The position numbers and the translations under genes are program-made. A stretch of DNA of 64,000 nt from Actinoallomurus purpureus (GTDB lineage: Bacteria; Actinomycetota; Actinomycetes; Streptosporangiales; Streptosporangiaceae): the NCBI RefSeq assembly GCF_024055795.1, contig NZ_JAMXMY010000010.1:248001-312000 (forward strand), given 5' to 3'. Shown piece after piece: positions 20,865 to 33,717 of this stretch. Position 1 is the stretch's first letter; each line of letters begins with the position of its first letter. Under the pieces are notes generated by a model. The model was not told the DNA's origin. It saw only the letters and a list, made by a program, of their open reading frames with translations, and ran no database searches.

Positions 20865-20947
20865 GGGCGGGTGGCGGAACGGCAGACGCGCACGGTTCAG
20901 GTCCGTGTGTCCGAAAGGACGTGAGGGTTCAAATCCCTCCTCGCCCA
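20865..20947 (+). tRNA. tRNA-Leu (anticodon CAG)
   Basis: Full class II cloverleaf: acceptor GGGCGGG pairs with CTCGCCC (one G-U), anticodon stem CACGG/CCGTG encloses TTCAGGT (anticodon CAG), a long variable arm TGTCCGAAAGGACGT follows, and the T-arm is GAGGGTTCAAATCCCTC. Discriminator A, as expected for leucine; CCA is not encoded. Decodes CUG, the dominant leucine codon in this genome. Confidence 0.96.
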
Positions 20948-21044
20948 CTCGGTGTCGGGGTCAGTGTGGTCGGAAGCGGGGGCTTCCTCCCTCTGACCCC
21001 TTCGTCATTTCCTCCGGGGGGACGACCCCCCGGGCCCCCCGATG

Positions 21045-21250
21045 TGGGGGGGCTTCGCCCCCCACGCCCCCCTGCGCGGGCTGGGGTTGGCGGGTCCGGG
21101 TGCTGGTGGGGGTTTCGCCCCCCACGCTCCCCCCTGCGCGGGCTGGGTGGCGGTCCGGGTGCTGGTGGGGGCTTCGCCCCCTGCACCCCCCGCCCAGGCT
21201 GGAGCTCGTGGTCCGGTTGTCCGGGACTGTTCTGTGGGGGCTTCGCCCCC
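21045..21250 (+). repeat. Four tandem GC-hairpin repeats downstream of tRNA-Leu
   Basis: Four copies of GGGGGCTTCGCCCCC or its TTTCG variant occur near 21046-21063, 21108-21123, 21167-21181 and 21236-21250. Copies 1-3 lie in an imperfect 60-70 base unit with TGCGCGGGCTGGG and GTCCGGGTGCTGG. Each forms a hairpin with a very short loop. This fills most of the 455-base gap between tRNA-Leu and the response regulator gene; no protein gene is supported there. Confidence 0.85.
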
Positions 21251-21395: not shown

Positions 21396-21427
21396 TCGCG
21401 GGCTACGAGTCGACGATCCCCGCGTCG
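21396..21427. repeat. 32-bp direct repeat, copy C (3' end of response regulator gene)
   Basis: Identical over 32 bases to 26555-26586. It covers the last codons (DAGIVDS), the stop codon and a few following bases of the response-regulator gene. Confidence 0.9.
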
Positions 21428-22053
21428 TGCGCGAGTAGTCCGGCCTGGGTGCGGTTGACGCACCCCAGCTTGTCCAGGGTGCGTGACACATAGCCCTTGA
21501 TGGTGGCCTCGGAGAGGAACAGCCGTGCCGCGATCTGCGCGTTCGACAGGCCCTCGCCGAGGCCGGCCAGCACTTGGGCCTCCCGCTCGGTCAGCGAGCC
21601 GACCAGTTCGCGCGCGCGTTCCCGGGCCGCCAGGTTGTCCGTCGACACCGCGACGAGTCGGCGGGCGGCGGCGGGCGACAGGACGGTGTGCCCCTGGGCC
21701 GCCGCGCGCACCAGCCCGATCAGCTCCTCCGGCGGCGTGGACTTGACCAGGAAGCCGGTCGCCCCGGCCCGCAGGGCACGCAGCACATACGGGTCGGCGT
21801 CGAAGGTCGTCAGCACCACGACGTTCGGCGGGTCCGCCAGCTCGTTGATGCGCTGGATCGCGGTCAGGCCGTCCATGCCCGGCATGCGCAGGTCCATCAG
21901 GACGACGTCCGGGCGGTCCTGCTGGACGGCTTGGAGGCCGGCCGCCCCGTCGTGTGCCTCAGCGACGACCTCGATGTCCTCGGCCGAGCCGAGGATGGTG
22001 CGCAGAAACACGCGCACCATGGGCTCGTCGTCCACTACCAGCACTCGGGGCAT
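21403..22053 (-). CDS. NarL/LuxR-family response regulator
   Basis: 216 residues. Receiver domain with acidic pocket (VVDDEP), phospho-acceptor Asp in VVLMDLRMPG (near 54), and the conserved Thr/Lys (TTFDAD, LVKSTPP). C-terminal LuxR helix-turn-helix with LTEREAQVLAGLGEGLSNAQ. Two bases separate it from the sensor kinase stop, so the pair forms one system. Likely controls the adjacent genes, perhaps the ABC exporter, but that is inference. Confidence 0.93.
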   Translation of the reverse strand: MPRVLVVDDEPMVRVFLRTILGSAEDIEVVAEAHDGAAGLQAVQQDRPDVVLMDLRMPGMDGLTAIQRINELADPPNVVVLTTFDADPYVLRALRAGATGFLVKSTPPEELIGLVRAAAQGHTVLSPAAARRLVAVSTDNLAARERARELVGSLTEREAQVLAGLGEGLSNAQIAARLFLSEATIKGYVSRTLDKLGCVNRTQAGLLAHDAGIVDS

Positions 22054-22055
22054 TC

Positions 22056-23252
22056 TCACACCGTCAATTCCGCGGTAGGTACGTGCGCGGGCAGCGTCGC
22101 CTCGACGCTGAACCCGCCGTCGGGACCGGGTCCGGCACGCAGTCTGCCCTGCACCAACTCGACGCGCTGCCGCAGGTGGGGGATGCCCAGACCGGAACCG
22201 GAGCCGGCGAGGGCAATGCTGGGTCTGCTGGTCGGTGGCGTGTTGTGCACCGTGAGCCGCAGCCGCGCCTCCTCGTACTCGACCCGCACCGTCACCCGCG
22301 CGCCGGGCGCGTGCTTGCGCACGTTGGTAAGAGCCTCGCGCAGTACGCGGTAGGCGATGCGCCCCACCACCGGTGAGGCGAGTGCAGGGTCGCCCTCCTG
22401 GATCAGTTCGGTGGGTATCCCCACCGCGACCGACTCGGCGATCAGGTTGTCGAAGCCTCCCACCGAGGGCGTGTGATCGCCGTCGGACGCGGCGCGCAGG
22501 ATGCCGACCACGTCGCGCAGCTCGTCCAGTGCCTGGCAGCCCGCCGCCCGCAGGTCCTCCGCGGCCTGCCGGGTCGCCTCGTCCTTGGCGGTCACGCGCA
22601 GCGCGCCGGCTTGCAGCACCATCAGGCTCACTCGGTGGGTGACCACGTCGTGCATTTCGACGGCCAGCCGCGCGCGCTCCTCCGCGCGCGCCTGCTCGGC
22701 CAGCAGGTGCTGCTCCCGCTCGGCCCGCTCGGCCCGCTCCACCAGGGCGCAGACCATCCGCCGGCGGGCATCGAAGTACAGCGCCAGCAGCGGGCCGACC
22801 GCGGTGCGCAGCAGCCCTATCGTCATGACCGTCACCGACGGGTCCCAGGGCCGCATGACGACGACGGTCAAGGCGGCGACCGCGACGAGCGCTCTCCTGC
22901 GGTTGTGCCGGTAGAACAGCGGACCGTACGCGGCCAGCACGGTGGAAAAGGGGGCCCAGGAATTCTCGTGGTGCGCCGGCGTCAGCGCGCCCACCGGTGA
23001 GATCAGCAGCGTCACCGCCAGCGTGAACGTACCGAGCACGCCGACGACGGTGAGCGGGGCGGTGCGGCGGACGGCCAGCGAGCCGCAGGCGAGCGCCTGC
23101 ACGCCCAGCATGACCCAGGCGAGGGTGCCCGGGTGATCCGGCCACCACGTGGCGCCGACCAGCGTCACGCCGGTGTCGAGCAGCCCGAAGGCGACCGCGA
23201 TCGCCACGTCCAAGGCGACCCGGTGCACTCGGTACCACGGTGCCTCTGCCAT
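22056..23252 (-). CDS. NarL-type sensor histidine kinase (HisKA_3)
   Basis: 398 residues: N-terminal half with about six short membrane helices and little outside loop (intramembrane-sensing type), coiled coil, phospho-acceptor His in MHDVVTHRVSLMV, and a degenerate ATPase domain with GSGLGIPHLRQRVELV. Partner of the response regulator just downstream. GGAGG lies unusually close (one base) to the chosen ATG, so the actual start may be the in-frame GTG at codon 9. Confidence 0.92.
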   Translation of the reverse strand: MAEAPWYRVHRVALDVAIAVAFGLLDTGVTLVGATWWPDHPGTLAWVMLGVQALACGSLAVRRTAPLTVVGVLGTFTLAVTLLISPVGALTPAHHENSWAPFSTVLAAYGPLFYRHNRRRALVAVAALTVVVMRPWDPSVTVMTIGLLRTAVGPLLALYFDARRRMVCALVERAERAEREQHLLAEQARAEERARLAVEMHDVVTHRVSLMVLQAGALRVTAKDEATRQAAEDLRAAGCQALDELRDVVGILRAASDGDHTPSVGGFDNLIAESVAVGIPTELIQEGDPALASPVVGRIAYRVLREALTNVRKHAPGARVTVRVEYEEARLRLTVHNTPPTSRPSIALAGSGSGLGIPHLRQRVELVQGRLRAGPGPDGGFSVEATLPAHVPTAELTV

Positions 23253-23431
23253 GCCTCCTACCGTAGGGAATGCGGGCTGTCGTATCGCCCGAACGGGAAT
23301 CGCTCAGTACGTCCGTCTTGGGCGCACCATGCGAAAGTCGTATGCCACTCCCTGCGAACAGCCCCTTCGTCGCTCCCGGAACCGACGGCCGGCCCTGTCG
23401 CGCGAGGGTCCGCCGACATGAGATTAGGGGC

Positions 23432-23947
23432 ATGGCTACGACGAACAACCCCGTCACGACGACCCCCCGGCTGGGCCGCTACACGATCGACACGAACCGC
23501 TCCTCCATCACGTTCAGGAGTCGCCACTTCTTCGGCCTGCTGCCGGTGAAGGGCACCTTCGCGATCCGCAGCGGAACGATCGAGGTGGCCGAGCCGCTCG
23601 CCGAGTCGAGCCTTCGGGTGGAGGCCGACGCGGCGAGCTTCCACACCGGCAACGACCAACGGGACGCGCACGTACGGTCGGCGGCGTTCCTCGACACCGG
23701 CCGCCACCCTCTGATCACGTTCGTCTCCGACGGCGTGGACACCACCACGGTCTCCGGAACGCTCACCGTGTGCGACGTCTCGCAGCCCGTGAGCCTGGCG
23801 ATCGTGCACTCCGAGGTGGCCGCGGAGACCTTCACCGTGCGTGCCACGACCCGGGTCGACCGCCACGACTTCGGTGTGACGGCGTCCCGCCTGATGGCCG
23901 GGCGGCACCTCGACCTGACGCTGGAGGTCACCTGTGTGCATCGCTGA
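23432..23947 (+). CDS. YceI-family lipocalin-like protein
   Basis: 171 residues of the YceI fold: GRYTIDTNRSSITFRSRHFFG at the start, SFHTGNDQRDAHVRSAAFLD, and HDFGV near the end. No signal peptide, so cytosolic unlike E. coli YceI. The family binds isoprenoid or amphiphilic ligands and often sits beside transport or stress genes. Divergent from the histidine kinase and 39 bases before the ABC genes, so possibly in one operon with them. Confidence 0.88.
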   Translation: MATTNNPVTTTPRLGRYTIDTNRSSITFRSRHFFGLLPVKGTFAIRSGTIEVAEPLAESSLRVEADAASFHTGNDQRDAHVRSAAFLDTGRHPLITFVSDGVDTTTVSGTLTVCDVSQPVSLAIVHSEVAAETFTVRATTRVDRHDFGVTASRLMAGRHLDLTLEVTCVHR

Positions 23948-23986
23948 CCTCGACGACCGCACACCACCGAATCACCGGAGACGACC

Positions 23987-24928
23987 ATGACCAACGCGGT
24001 CGTGGTGGAAAGTCTGCACAAGGCCTACGGCACGGTACGGGCCGTGAACGGCGTGACCTTCACGGTCGAGCACGGCGAGATATTCGCGCTGCTGGGCCGC
24101 AATGGTGCAGGCAAGACCACCACCATGGAGATCCTCGAGGGTTTCCGCACCAGGGACGGCGGGCGTGCCGAAGTGCTCGGCCTCGACCCGGGCGACCCGG
24201 CCACCAAGCGACGGCTGAGCGAGCGCATCGGTCTCGTGCTGCAGGACATCGCGGTCGAGCCGTACCTGACCGTCCGCGAGACGATCGCCCGCGACGCGGG
24301 CTACTACTCGGCGCCGCGCGACATCGACGAGGTGATCGGCCTGGTCGACCTCGTCGGACATGAGAAGAAGAAGGTCCGCACGCTCTCCGGCGGCCAGAAG
24401 CGCCGCTTGGACCTCGCACTGGGAATCATCGGCGACCCCGATCTGCTCTTCCTCGACGAGCCGACGACCGGGTTCGACCCGAACGCCCGCCGGGGCGCCT
24501 GGCGGCTGGTGCGGAATCTGCGCGACGCGGGGATGGCCATCCTGCTCACCACGCACTACATGGAAGAGGCCCAGGCGCTGGCCGACCGCGTGGCGGTGAT
24601 CGCCGCCGGGCGGATCGTGGCCGAGGGCACCCCCGACGCCCTCGGCGGACGCAATACCGCGCAGACTCGCATCCGTTTCGAGCTGCCTCCGGCGTGCGCG
24701 GTCACCGATCTGCCGGTGGCCGCCGTGCCGGGCGATGACGGCCTGGTCACCGTGGAGTCCGCGGAGCCGACCGAGATGCTGCACCAGCTGACCGGCTGGG
24801 CGCTGGGCCGCGGTGCGGTGCTCGCCCGGCTGACCGTCGACCGGCCCAGCCTGGAGGACATCTACCTGCATCTGACCGGCGATGACCGGAGTGCGCCGGA
24901 ACGCACGCTGGAAAGGAGCGCACCGTGA
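23987..24928 (+). CDS. ABC transporter ATP-binding protein, drug-export (DrrA) type
   Basis: 313 residues: Walker A GRNGAGKTTT (near 37), Q-loop, signature LSGGQKRRLDL (near 132), Walker B LLFLDEPTTGFD, and a DrrA-type C-terminal extension (GRGAVLARLTVDRPSLEDIYLHLTG). Powers the adjacent ABC-2 permease, most likely exporting a drug or lipid. GGAG precedes the ATG; its stop overlaps the permease start by four bases. Confidence 0.94.
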   Translation: MTNAVVVESLHKAYGTVRAVNGVTFTVEHGEIFALLGRNGAGKTTTMEILEGFRTRDGGRAEVLGLDPGDPATKRRLSERIGLVLQDIAVEPYLTVRETIARDAGYYSAPRDIDEVIGLVDLVGHEKKKVRTLSGGQKRRLDLALGIIGDPDLLFLDEPTTGFDPNARRGAWRLVRNLRDAGMAILLTTHYMEEAQALADRVAVIAAGRIVAEGTPDALGGRNTAQTRIRFELPPACAVTDLPVAAVPGDDGLVTVESAEPTEMLHQLTGWALGRGAVLARLTVDRPSLEDIYLHLTGDDRSAPERTLERSAP

Positions 24929-25725
24929 CCGTTGCGGTTCCGGGCGCGGGGCACCGCGCACCTCGCCGCGGGGTCGGCCTGTTCTGGCACCAGATTCGCT
25001 ACGAGCAACTGACCTTCTGGCGCAACCCGCAGAGCGCGTTCTTCACCTTCGTGTTCCCGGTCTTGGTCATCTCGATCTTCGGCGGGTTGTTCGGTGACGT
25101 CAAGGACAGCTCTTTCTACTATGGCGGGGACGCGCTCCAGTACTACGTGTCCACGATCATCGCGATGTCCGTACTGGGCTCCTGCTACAGCCAGTTGGCC
25201 ATCGTGCTCGCGACCCGGCGCCAGAACGGGATCCTGAAGCGGGTCCGGGCCACACCGCTGCCCGCCTCCGTGTACTTCGTGGGCCTGCTGGCGCACTGCG
25301 TCCTGGTGAGCTTCGTCGACGTCCTGCTCATCATCGTGGTCGGCCGGTTCTACGGGCTCTCGCTGCCCGCGTCCTCACAGTGGCTCCCGATTGTCGTATC
25401 CCTGGCGCTCGGCGCGACGGCCTACTGCGCGCTCGGCGCCGCCGTGGCCTCGGTGATCAAAAACGCGGACGCCGCGCCGGCCGTCGTGCAGTTCGTCCTG
25501 TTCCCACTAGTGATCATTTCCGGCACCATGGTGCCGATCCACGGCGCCATCGGCACCATCTCCAGCGTGCTGCCGGTGAAGCCGTTGAACGACGCGCTGC
25601 TGACCGCCTTCACCGGCAGCGGCTCCGGCTTCCGGTGGCATGACTACGGCACTCTGCTCGTGTGGGGTGCGGTCAGTGCGGTGGTGGCCATCCGCCGGTT
25701 CCGCTGGGACCCACGGCCGGAGTAG
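24925..25725 (+). CDS. ABC-2 type transporter permease
   Basis: 266 residues with six membrane helices and the ABC-2 layout: N-terminal YEQLTFWRNPQSAFFTFVFPV coupling helix, then LATRRQNGILKRVRATPLP, and a late SVLPVKPLNDALLTAF. Partner of the DrrA-like ATPase, start coupled by GTGA. Together with the NarL two-component system this resembles antibiotic-sensing exporters, but the substrate is unknown. Confidence 0.92.
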   Translation: MTVAVPGAGHRAPRRGVGLFWHQIRYEQLTFWRNPQSAFFTFVFPVLVISIFGGLFGDVKDSSFYYGGDALQYYVSTIIAMSVLGSCYSQLAIVLATRRQNGILKRVRATPLPASVYFVGLLAHCVLVSFVDVLLIIVVGRFYGLSLPASSQWLPIVVSLALGATAYCALGAAVASVIKNADAAPAVVQFVLFPLVIISGTMVPIHGAIGTISSVLPVKPLNDALLTAFTGSGSGFRWHDYGTLLVWGAVSAVVAIRRFRWDPRPE

Positions 25726-25894
25726 ATCGATCCCGAAGCCGTTCCACCGCCGTTCGGTCGGCGACATGCCGATCGTCACGGAGGCGGGCGTCTTGCTCCG
25801 CGGTGTCTACACAGACGAGAAAGATGCTCGCGTGGGTAGATGCCGCTGAACGAGGCGTCCCGCCCCCTGGGGGACGTCGCGCCACGGTCCTCCG

Positions 25895-25928
25895 GCGTCG
25901 GGGTGGGAGGGGGCGATGGGTCCCGTCA
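25895..25928. repeat. 34-bp direct repeat, copy A
   Basis: Matches 26581-26614 with one mismatch in 34 bases. It lies in the roughly 350-base gap between the ABC permease and the SnoaL-like gene; that gap holds no supported gene. Confidence 0.85.
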
Positions 25929-26017
25929 AGGCGCGCGGGACGGCGCTCCTTGCGGCTATCTCGGCTGCCCGCAGGTGAGAATTGTCAGCGCCGCGGGCCT
26001 GACATCTCTGGGTGCTG

Positions 26018-26034
26018 TGTTGTCGTACTAGTGA
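26018..26034. promoter_or_regulatory. Possible shared operator half-site upstream of the SnoaL-like gene
   Basis: The 17 bases read TGTTGTCGTACTAGTGA and match 15 of 17 bases of 27318-27334, upstream of the TetR gene. No other role for the match is evident. Confidence 0.4.
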
Positions 26035-26071
26035 GAAGTCAAGGTTCCACACCGAATGGGGATGGGTAGCG

Positions 26072-26512
26072 ATGCCTACGCAACGCGAGGTAGACGAAGC
26101 CAAGGTCAGGCGGCAAGTCGACAAGATAGTCGAAGGAATCCGAGCCAAGGATCTCGAGGGCCTGAAGCAGCTTTACGCAACGGACGTCGTGTCCTTCGAC
26201 GTCGAGCCACCGCTGCAGCATGTAGGAATAGCGGCGAAATTGAAGAACTGGGCGAATGTGTTCACGTTCTTCCAGGATGCGACTTATGAGGTGCGCGACC
26301 TGACGCTCACCGTGGGCGACGAAGTGGCATTCGGGCACTGCTTCGGTCGGCTCAGCGGCACGCTGAAGAACGGGACGGCGACGAGCGGTATGTGGGTCCG
26401 GGGCACTTTCTGCTTCCGGAAGATCGACGGCAATTGGTTGATCGTGCACGACCAGGCTTCTGTGCCGTTCGATATATCGAGCGGCAAAGGAGTGACAGAC
26501 CTCGAGCCCTGA
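26072..26512 (+). CDS. SnoaL/NTF2-like fold protein
   Basis: 146 residues of a cone-shaped alpha+beta barrel as in SnoaL/ketosteroid-isomerase-like proteins: IVEGIRAKDLEGLKQLYATD near the start, a long central helix region, and ending strands GTFCFRKIDGNWLIVHDQ. Members act as small isomerases, cyclases or ligand binders. GGGATGGG precedes the ATG at normal distance. AT content is visibly higher than in neighbouring genes, and it is flanked by direct repeats A and B, so it may be acquired. Specific role unknown. Confidence 0.82.
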   Translation: MPTQREVDEAKVRRQVDKIVEGIRAKDLEGLKQLYATDVVSFDVEPPLQHVGIAAKLKNWANVFTFFQDATYEVRDLTLTVGDEVAFGHCFGRLSGTLKNGTATSGMWVRGTFCFRKIDGNWLIVHDQASVPFDISSGKGVTDLEP

Positions 26513-26554
26513 CGAGTCGCAGAAGTTGGGACCGGCACGCAGCTCTGACGCTTT

Positions 26555-26614
26555 TCGCGGGCTACGAGTCGACGATCCCCGCGTCGGGGTGGGAGGGGGC
26601 GATGGGTTCCGTCA
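26555..26614. repeat. 60-bp mosaic repeat, copy B
   Basis: The first 32 bases equal the 3' end region of the response regulator gene 5.2 kb away, and the last 34 equal the repeat 0.69 kb away (one mismatch); the two matches overlap by six bases (GCGTCG). It lies just after the SnoaL-like gene, before the TetR gene tail. Confidence 0.88.
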
Positions 26615-26626
26615 GGTGTCGCCGGC

Positions 26627-27262
26627 TCATGAGGGTTCGGCGAAGGCGCCGGCGGACGCGGCGAGGGCGGCGGTTCTGGCCGTCTGGTCGGGCAGGTGCG
26701 GGTCGGGTGGCGTGCGGAGAAGCACCAGCTGGTGGTACAGCGGTGCGGTGGCGGCGATGAGCAGTCGCCGAGCGTTGGTGTGCGGCGGGAGTTCGCCGCG
26801 CCGGATGGCCCGGCTGACGATGATCTCGCAGCGGGCGTACCGGTCCTCCCAGAGTCGCCGTTGGGCGCGGTCGGCCTTCTCGGAGCGGAATGAGGCGGCG
26901 ATCAGGGCCGCCGCGATCGGCGGCTGTGCGGTCAGTGCGTCCTGGATCTCATGGTTCAGTGCCGCCAGGTCTCCTTCCAGCGAGGCGGTGTCCGGAGGTT
27001 GCCAGGCGTCGTCGCTCGCCGCGTCGAGGACGTCGGCGAGCAGGCCGCCGACGTCTCCCCAGCGCCGGTACACCGTTGCGCGGTGCACGCCGGCACGGGC
27101 GGCGACGGCCTCCATGGTGAGCCCGTCATAGCCGTGCTCTCCGAGCTCCGCGAGGACCGCGTCGAGTACCTGCGTACGGATACGGGCGGTGCGGCCGCCG
27201 GGGCGGCGTCGGGTCGGTGGCACGGGCCGGGTGTCCTCCGGTCGTGGTGCTGGGGGAGTCAT
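26627..27262 (-). CDS. TetR/AcrR family transcriptional regulator
   Basis: 211 residues. N-terminal helix-turn-helix: RTQVLDAVLAELGEHGYDGLT, MEAVAARAGVHRATVYRRW, i.e. the usual TetR recognition helix. C-terminal ligand-binding part with LADVLDAAS and the LYHQLVLL helix of the TetR_C_11/16 kind. Likely autoregulates and may control the SnoaL-like gene, since a similar palindromic element lies before both. Ligand unknown. Confidence 0.9.
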   Translation of the reverse strand: MTPPAPRPEDTRPVPPTRRRPGGRTARIRTQVLDAVLAELGEHGYDGLTMEAVAARAGVHRATVYRRWGDVGGLLADVLDAASDDAWQPPDTASLEGDLAALNHEIQDALTAQPPIAAALIAASFRSEKADRAQRRLWEDRYARCEIIVSRAIRRGELPPHTNARRLLIAATAPLYHQLVLLRTPPDPHLPDQTARTAALAASAGAFAEPS

Positions 27263-28746: not shown

Positions 28747-28777
28747 TTTGTGGGACGTGGAACTAAAGTCGCCGACC

Positions 28778-32739: not shown

Positions 32740-33717
32740 TCAGGTGCCCGGTGCCGGGTGGGCCACCACGAGGCGTCCGTCCTCGTCCGTCACGGTCGTA
32801 CCGAACGTCGCGCAGGCGGTGGTGAAACGGTCGCGGATCCAGGCGCGGTCGGTGCCGGTGGCGAGGCGGGTACGGGCGGACTCCAGCGCCAGTGGGACGG
32901 CCGTGAGCCGGACGAACCCGCGCCCGGCGAGAGTGGCGAGGAACAGCAGGCCGAGATCGTTGCGCAGGGCGGGGTCCACCGCGTAGTCGTCGATGAGATC
33001 ACCGAGGTCGTACAGCACACGGCCCGACACGCCGTGGAAGACGTGCGCGGAGTGCCCGGCGACCAGGGTCGCCCCGGCGTCGACCAGGACCCGCGCGGCC
33101 GCCCGTACGTATCGCGGGGGGTCGATCGTCATGTTGGGTCCCCAGTGAGCCAGCACGAGCACGCGTGCACCGCCGGCGGACAGATTGCGGATTCGCACGG
33201 TGAGCCAGGCCGGGACCTCGTGGCGCAGGTCGGCGTACGCGACCCCTGGCCGGTCCTCGCCGGCGGCGAAGTCGTTCGGATGGTCGGTCACGCCGAGGAC
33301 GGCCACCTGCCCGTCCGCGGTGTCGAACAGGGCCGGCTCCCGCGCCCGCCACACGTCCGTACCCGCCCCGACGACGCGTACGCCCGCGCGGGCCAGGTGG
33401 TCGAGCGTGTCCGTCAGGGCCTCGGGGCCGTAGTCCAGCGCGTGGTTGTTGGCCAGCGTCACGCAGTCGATCCCCAGATCGGCGAGCGTGTCCGCCGCCT
33501 GGGGCGGGGCGCGGAAGTGGAACGGCTTGTCGGGCGCCCGCCACGGCTCGCCGCGCGCGGACACACAGCACTCGAGGTTGACCAGGGACAGGTCGGCGGA
33601 ACGGAAGATCTGCCGCACGTCGTCGGCGAACAGACCGTACGGGCCGAACGCGGCGATCTGCTCTGCGACCCCGCGTCCGAGCATCGTGTCGCCGCCCAGG
33701 GCGACCGTGATGGTCAC
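32740..33717 (-). CDS. CapA-family metallophosphatase-like protein
   Basis: 325 residues of the CapA/PgsA fold: GGDTMLGRGV at the start, SLVNLECCVSARGEPW, NNHALDYGPEAL, VLAHWGPNM and GHSAHVFHGV, i.e. the metal-binding Asp/Asn/His set of calcineurin-like enzymes. CapA proteins work in poly-gamma-glutamate capsule formation or export; isolated actinobacterial copies, like this one without pgsB/C, are of unsure role. GTG start with GGGAG upstream. Confidence 0.88.
   Translation of the reverse strand: MTITVALGGDTMLGRGVAEQIAAFGPYGLFADDVRQIFRSADLSLVNLECCVSARGEPWRAPDKPFHFRAPPQAADTLADLGIDCVTLANNHALDYGPEALTDTLDHLARAGVRVVGAGTDVWRAREPALFDTADGQVAVLGVTDHPNDFAAGEDRPGVAYADLRHEVPAWLTVRIRNLSAGGARVLVLAHWGPNMTIDPPRYVRAAARVLVDAGATLVAGHSAHVFHGVSGRVLYDLGDLIDDYAVDPALRNDLGLLFLATLAGRGFVRLTAVPLALESARTRLATGTDRAWIRDRFTTACATFGTTVTDEDGRLVVAHPAPGT

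Follow-up and report, generated by a model that had tools for sequence, protein, structure and literature searches.

The window, that is the whole 64-kb stretch of DNA that was analyzed, carries a tRNA-Leu gene at 20865-20948 followed by a series of genes recognized by their Pfam families. A response regulator and a histidine kinase are found on the minus strand, and YceI, an ABC ATPase and an ABC permease on the plus strand (21403-25725 altogether). To the right of them come a SnoaL-like gene (SnoaL_3, Pfam E 2.4e-16) on the plus strand at 26072-26512 and, on the minus strand at 26627-27262, a gene for a TetR-type regulator (TetR_N and TetR_C_11), whose downstream flank would be the target of the event described here. 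Three related segments are scattered along these genes. We have called them A (21396-21427), C (25880-25928) and B (26555-26614).

We have compared the tRNA-Leu side of the region with six genomes of the same genus (a seventh, G004, gave no such hit). In the six the alignment ends at 20950-21184, before the 32 bases of A. It resumes at 28752-28764 in two of them and at 32836-32983 in three, and the sixth gave no further match to the window between 21.1 and 40 kb in the stretch examined. The stretch from 21.1 to 28.75 kb is thus a variable region made of pieces with different histories. A GC-rich repeat follows the tRNA-Leu gene on its 3' side (20949-21075) and matches eight more places in the own genome. 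Of the nine, seven, among them the present one, are found on the 3' side of a tRNA gene (Leu, Ala, Phe, Ile or Ser), no more than about 150 bases away. At the other end of the region, 27458-27525 matches the opening codons of a gene, presumably acetyltransferase-like, that lies at L116 3463-4314 beside TetR in G081, a genome of another genus. In the window this match is interrupted, and it overlaps a fragment in which a Trans_reg_C domain was recognized.

The mosaic repeat and the regulator gene end

The original prediction had described B as a mosaic of two pieces that meet at GCGTCG, and we could reproduce its coordinates and identities. The left piece, B-left (26555-26586, plus strand), is identical to A over 32 of 32 bases. 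The right piece, B-right (26581-26614), matches 25895-25928, within C, at 33 of 34 bases, and at the single mismatch it is C that has the base of G081. Both halves of B overlap in the six bases GCGTCG, located at 21422-21427 in A, at 25895-25900 in C and at 26581-26586 in B, and B-left consists of 26 further bases plus this hexamer. At the other end of these 26 bases (26555) no microhomology was seen. As exact repeats, the A/B and C/B pairs (32 and 27 bases) were the two longest in the window in a census of repeats of at least 17 bases on both strands, the third one having 22. In order-3 Markov copies of the window (20 copies), the longest repeat was between 17 and 22 bases.

We have searched the own genome (9.25 Mb in 52 contigs) with the 100 bases around B (26535-26634) at E<=0.001. 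Four places matched: B itself, C (37 bases, 95%), A (32 bases, 100%) and a stretch of contig C17 (29 bases, 90%, E 7.8e-4), the inspection of which provided no lead. The joined form is therefore single in this assembly, and the many joined copies that would point to a common dispersed repeat, and away from a local rearrangement, are absent.

Segment A, on the minus strand, comprises the last codons of the response regulator, its stop (21403-21405) and 7 bases beyond. In relatives of this regulator, for example the one in Streptomyces albus (L067), the gene finishes in a similar tail; the regulator ends of G190 and G016 are the same as those of L070 and L071, the last being Actinomadura alba, which points to Streptosporangiaceae in the GTDB sense as the family of the window. 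Since the tail belongs to the gene in these relatives, A is the native sequence and B-left is the copy, a stray gene end as had been foreseen from the letters alone.

The genes that start with this regulator have been found together elsewhere. At L067, L068, L069, L070 and L071 the DNA match begins close to the stop of the regulator and extends as far as the ABC stop, and at L072, L073, L074 and L075 it is partial; in S. albus (L067) the match comes in two pieces, with 84.5% and 77% identity. In none of these nine loci, of 11-17 kb each, was DNA similarity to the SnoaL part detected (E<=1e-6, more than 60 bases). Judging from these alignments, the regulator, kinase, YceI and ABC genes are a unit of their own, which appears elsewhere without SnoaL. 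The original prediction had put a two-component system, YceI, an exporter and a SnoaL-like gene into one cassette between the outer repeats A and B. The gene content is as it stated, but the repeats do not bound a single cassette, since the match to the unit stops at the ABC stop in the relatives and SnoaL is located elsewhere in other genomes.

The same data bear on another explanation, in which 21396-26586 would be an integrated mobile element flanked, near a tRNA gene, by direct repeats of 32 bases that resemble attachment sites. Perfect direct repeats of this length do flank 5.2 kb, the tRNA-Leu gene is about 450 bases from the left one, and the genomes of the genus vary between about 21.1 and 28.75 kb. 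An empty site with a single copy of the 32-mer was not seen, the tRNA-side alignments of the six genomes ending short of it. However, the left repeat is a gene end with a similar tail in its relatives, the match to the unit elsewhere finishes at the ABC stop, and the repeat lies outside the tRNA. Besides, no integrase or transposase family was found among the six proteins of the interval (21403-26512) nor in the three just to the right. We regard such an element as extremely unlikely.

The TetR flank in relatives

Genes related to the TetR regulator occur elsewhere in the family. We have compared the downstream flanks of 20 relatives (18 loci plus L041 and L042), and for most of them the stretch adjacent to the gene was the only one in common. 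In G081 the flank is continuous, running through the sequence that corresponds to C and to its left side (C-left) into TetR. The C stretch (25880-25928) matched this flank with an E of 6e-7. When 25848-25928 was joined to 26615-26640, leaving out what lies between, positions 33-107 of the 107 bases of the query aligned to G081 with 83% identity (E 1.1e-14), and a longer join of C-left and B-right also aligned to G081 without a break. In G316 the joined sequence aligns likewise, with more differences, and provides a weaker second case.

The left side of the switch point was examined separately. In the 15 bases to the left of it (25880-25894 in the case of C), a length picked after the alignment was seen, C agrees with G081 at 14 positions and B at 2. 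A match of 14 out of 15 was reached by one of 200000 shuffles and by one plus-strand 15-mer of the window. When the 42 bases of C-left were aligned locally on their own to the 20 TetR flanks, the scores were not above those of shuffled sequences: 57 of 1000 shuffles were as high for G081, and between 104 and 996 for the other 19 flanks. With B-left alone the corresponding numbers were 89 of 1000 for G081 and 210-998 for the others.

Extended to the family, the joined query had some match in 41 of 341 genomes, the own one included, and a strong match spanning the junction in one of the 340 others, G081. The remaining matches were short, one-sided or away from TetR wherever the places were compared. 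Specifically, G158 (E 1.9e-7) covered query positions 49-106 only, to the right of the switch point, and in G003 the alignment does not start until the right end of the TetR flank. None of the seven other genomes of the same genus matched the joined query. The unbroken site seen in G081, and more weakly in G316, probably represents the locus as it was before the event, a reading that depends mainly on one genome. As C-left fits the flank of G081 and the join aligns without interruption, C and B-right have the appearance of a single target that was split in two and duplicated over some 34 bases around the SnoaL insert. C would be the left half of the split flank, with 25895-25928 as its duplicated portion, and B-right the second copy, which runs on into the TetR downstream flank as G081 does.

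This arrangement has consequences for the origin that had been suggested for B, namely that A and C had recombined, or had lost the DNA between them, so that the left side of A became attached to the right side of C. The form of B, with A sequence on the left and C sequence on the right of a common hexamer, is what such an event would produce. However, the DNA between A and C is still in place, C and B-right seem to form one split site, and only 26 bases of A are present in B, the sequence left of 26555 being different from the one left of A. The original prediction was right in seeing at B a rearrangement junction, which is local and single in the genome; that an exchange between A and C had created it is very unlikely.

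The SnoaL insert

Between the two target copies there is an insert (25929-26580, plus strand) that is absent from the TetR flank of G081. It is made of a flank, the SnoaL unit (about 25980-26532), 22 bases and the 26 bases of B-left, called filler from here on. The limits of the unit are those of the sequence common to SnoaL loci, and the unit sits at other places in the family. A query with 25700-26640 gave some match (E<=0.001) in 118 of the 341 family genomes, including the own one; many of the matches fall in SnoaL, and some concern other short stretches of the query. In G081, G316 and G003, SnoaL and TetR were matched on different contigs. At the DNA level the SnoaL gene is 92% and 91% identical to the copies of G141 and G205, which belong to other genera, and 84% and 81% to those of G007 and G003, of the same genus. 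That the two copies from its own genus are the more distant ones suggests that the gene was horizontally acquired. Upstream of it, at 26000-26027, there is a TGACAT box followed by a GTC-containing box, seen in SnoaL upstream regions, that we take to resemble an ECF sigma promoter. TGACAT was present in 20 of 21 SnoaL upstream rows by eye, and in 16 of 21 with a narrower script pattern.

We have analyzed the direct repeat that flanks the insert by comparing it with 20 other SnoaL loci, taking 250-base flanks. In the window none of 300 shuffles gave a repeat as high. At the other loci a repeat as high was given by 5 of 300 shuffles in the lowest case and by 33 and 34 in the next two, the remaining counts going up from there. 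With no comparable repeat at these 20 places, the repeat would belong to this event and not to the SnoaL unit. We had also considered the SnoaL unit itself to be mobile and to generate duplications of this kind, an idea that was dropped as no repeats stood out at the other 20 places.

The two short pieces that accompany the unit were searched as well. Within the window, neither 25929-25978 nor 26533-26554 had a source match above shuffles (on the minus strand, the best window match of the latter equals the best of 20 shuffles). In the own genome, no source was found for the first one with 25726-25995 as query, save weak hits at the left edge, nor for the second with 26535-26634. Further to the left, 25784-25883 (plus strand) is a 100-base intergenic-like piece with 83% identity to another place of the same genome (G000:C8:185821-185920), and shorter, weaker matches to it appear also in other genomes of the family.

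Probable gene capture during break repair and known end-joining systems

We propose that B is probably the right-hand scar left by the capture of a gene during the repair of a chromosome break. The break would have happened just downstream of TetR and would have been staggered by about 29-34 bases, unless its ends were copied in another way. A fragment of about 0.6 kb, containing the SnoaL-like gene and its upstream region, would then have been joined in. With the right side still open, the end on the TetR side would have annealed through GCGTCG to the terminal part of the response regulator gene, about 5 kb away, and 26 bases would have been copied from the regulator before release and joining to the SnoaL side. 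Fill-in would have left the target duplicated on both sides, as C and B-right. Segment A would be the source of the filler, as its identity with 26555-26586 and the similar tails of the related genes indicate.

The machinery involved was most likely Ku/LigD end joining. Genes for Ku and for the LigD Prim-Pol are present in contig C12, about 1.5 kb apart. The locus has several features of end-joining scars: a switch point with a short microhomology (GCGTCG), a short inserted copy of own-genome sequence (that of 21396-21427), an unbroken site in a relative (G081) and a host that possesses Ku and the LigD polymerase. A stepwise switching of replication templates between A, C and the SnoaL donor, in which no double-strand break was end-joined, would account equally well for copies with a short common sequence at the switch point, and from the sequence alone the outcome would look the same. 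However, inserts made during break repair have been shown experimentally in another actinomycete, in the part of that study drawn on here (PMC5869714), and we consider template switching unlikely. Returning to break repair, we put forward more tentatively that bacterial end joining may have integrated here a single, horizontally acquired gene without homology, together with filler from about 5 kb away and a duplication of about 34 bases.

The scar is real, local and single in the genome, and it is of a known kind, ordinary but unusually readable. It shows how single genes may enter the genomes of actinomycetes with neither homology nor a mobile element. Its signature, a split and duplicated target plus a local templated filler, is countable across genomes, and such counts could gauge how often end joining adds to gene gain.

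Polymerase-theta end joining in Drosophila reportedly gives templated insertions, in which microhomology primes the copying of filler from nearby. That is a eukaryotic enzyme, unlike the bacterial case described here. The closest comparison is with the I-SceI breaks repaired in Streptomyces ambofaciens. In the sections of that paper considered here (PMC5869714), microhomologies of 1-6 bases were found in 50% of the scars. Three clones had received inserts, of 42 or 83 bases when the source was near the break and of 30 when it was a transposase gene, and five insertion events were counted, from 30 bp to 18.8 kb. Its authors speculate about a role of end joining in the integration of foreign DNA, and the locus, if our reading is true, would be a natural, readable example for their suggestion that it helps such DNA to enter. 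The likeness lies in the short microhomology, in the small size of the insert, 26-32 bases against the 42, 83 and 30 of S. ambofaciens, and in its origin from a nearby region, as in two of the three clones. Unlike those scars, which followed an I-SceI break and received own-genome inserts, the one studied here would come from a natural event with a gene-sized, foreign-looking insert. The target duplicated over about 34 bases, which speaks against our reading, is also much longer than the fill-ins of 1-4 bases that the same sections give for S. ambofaciens, and the filler here would be a templated one.
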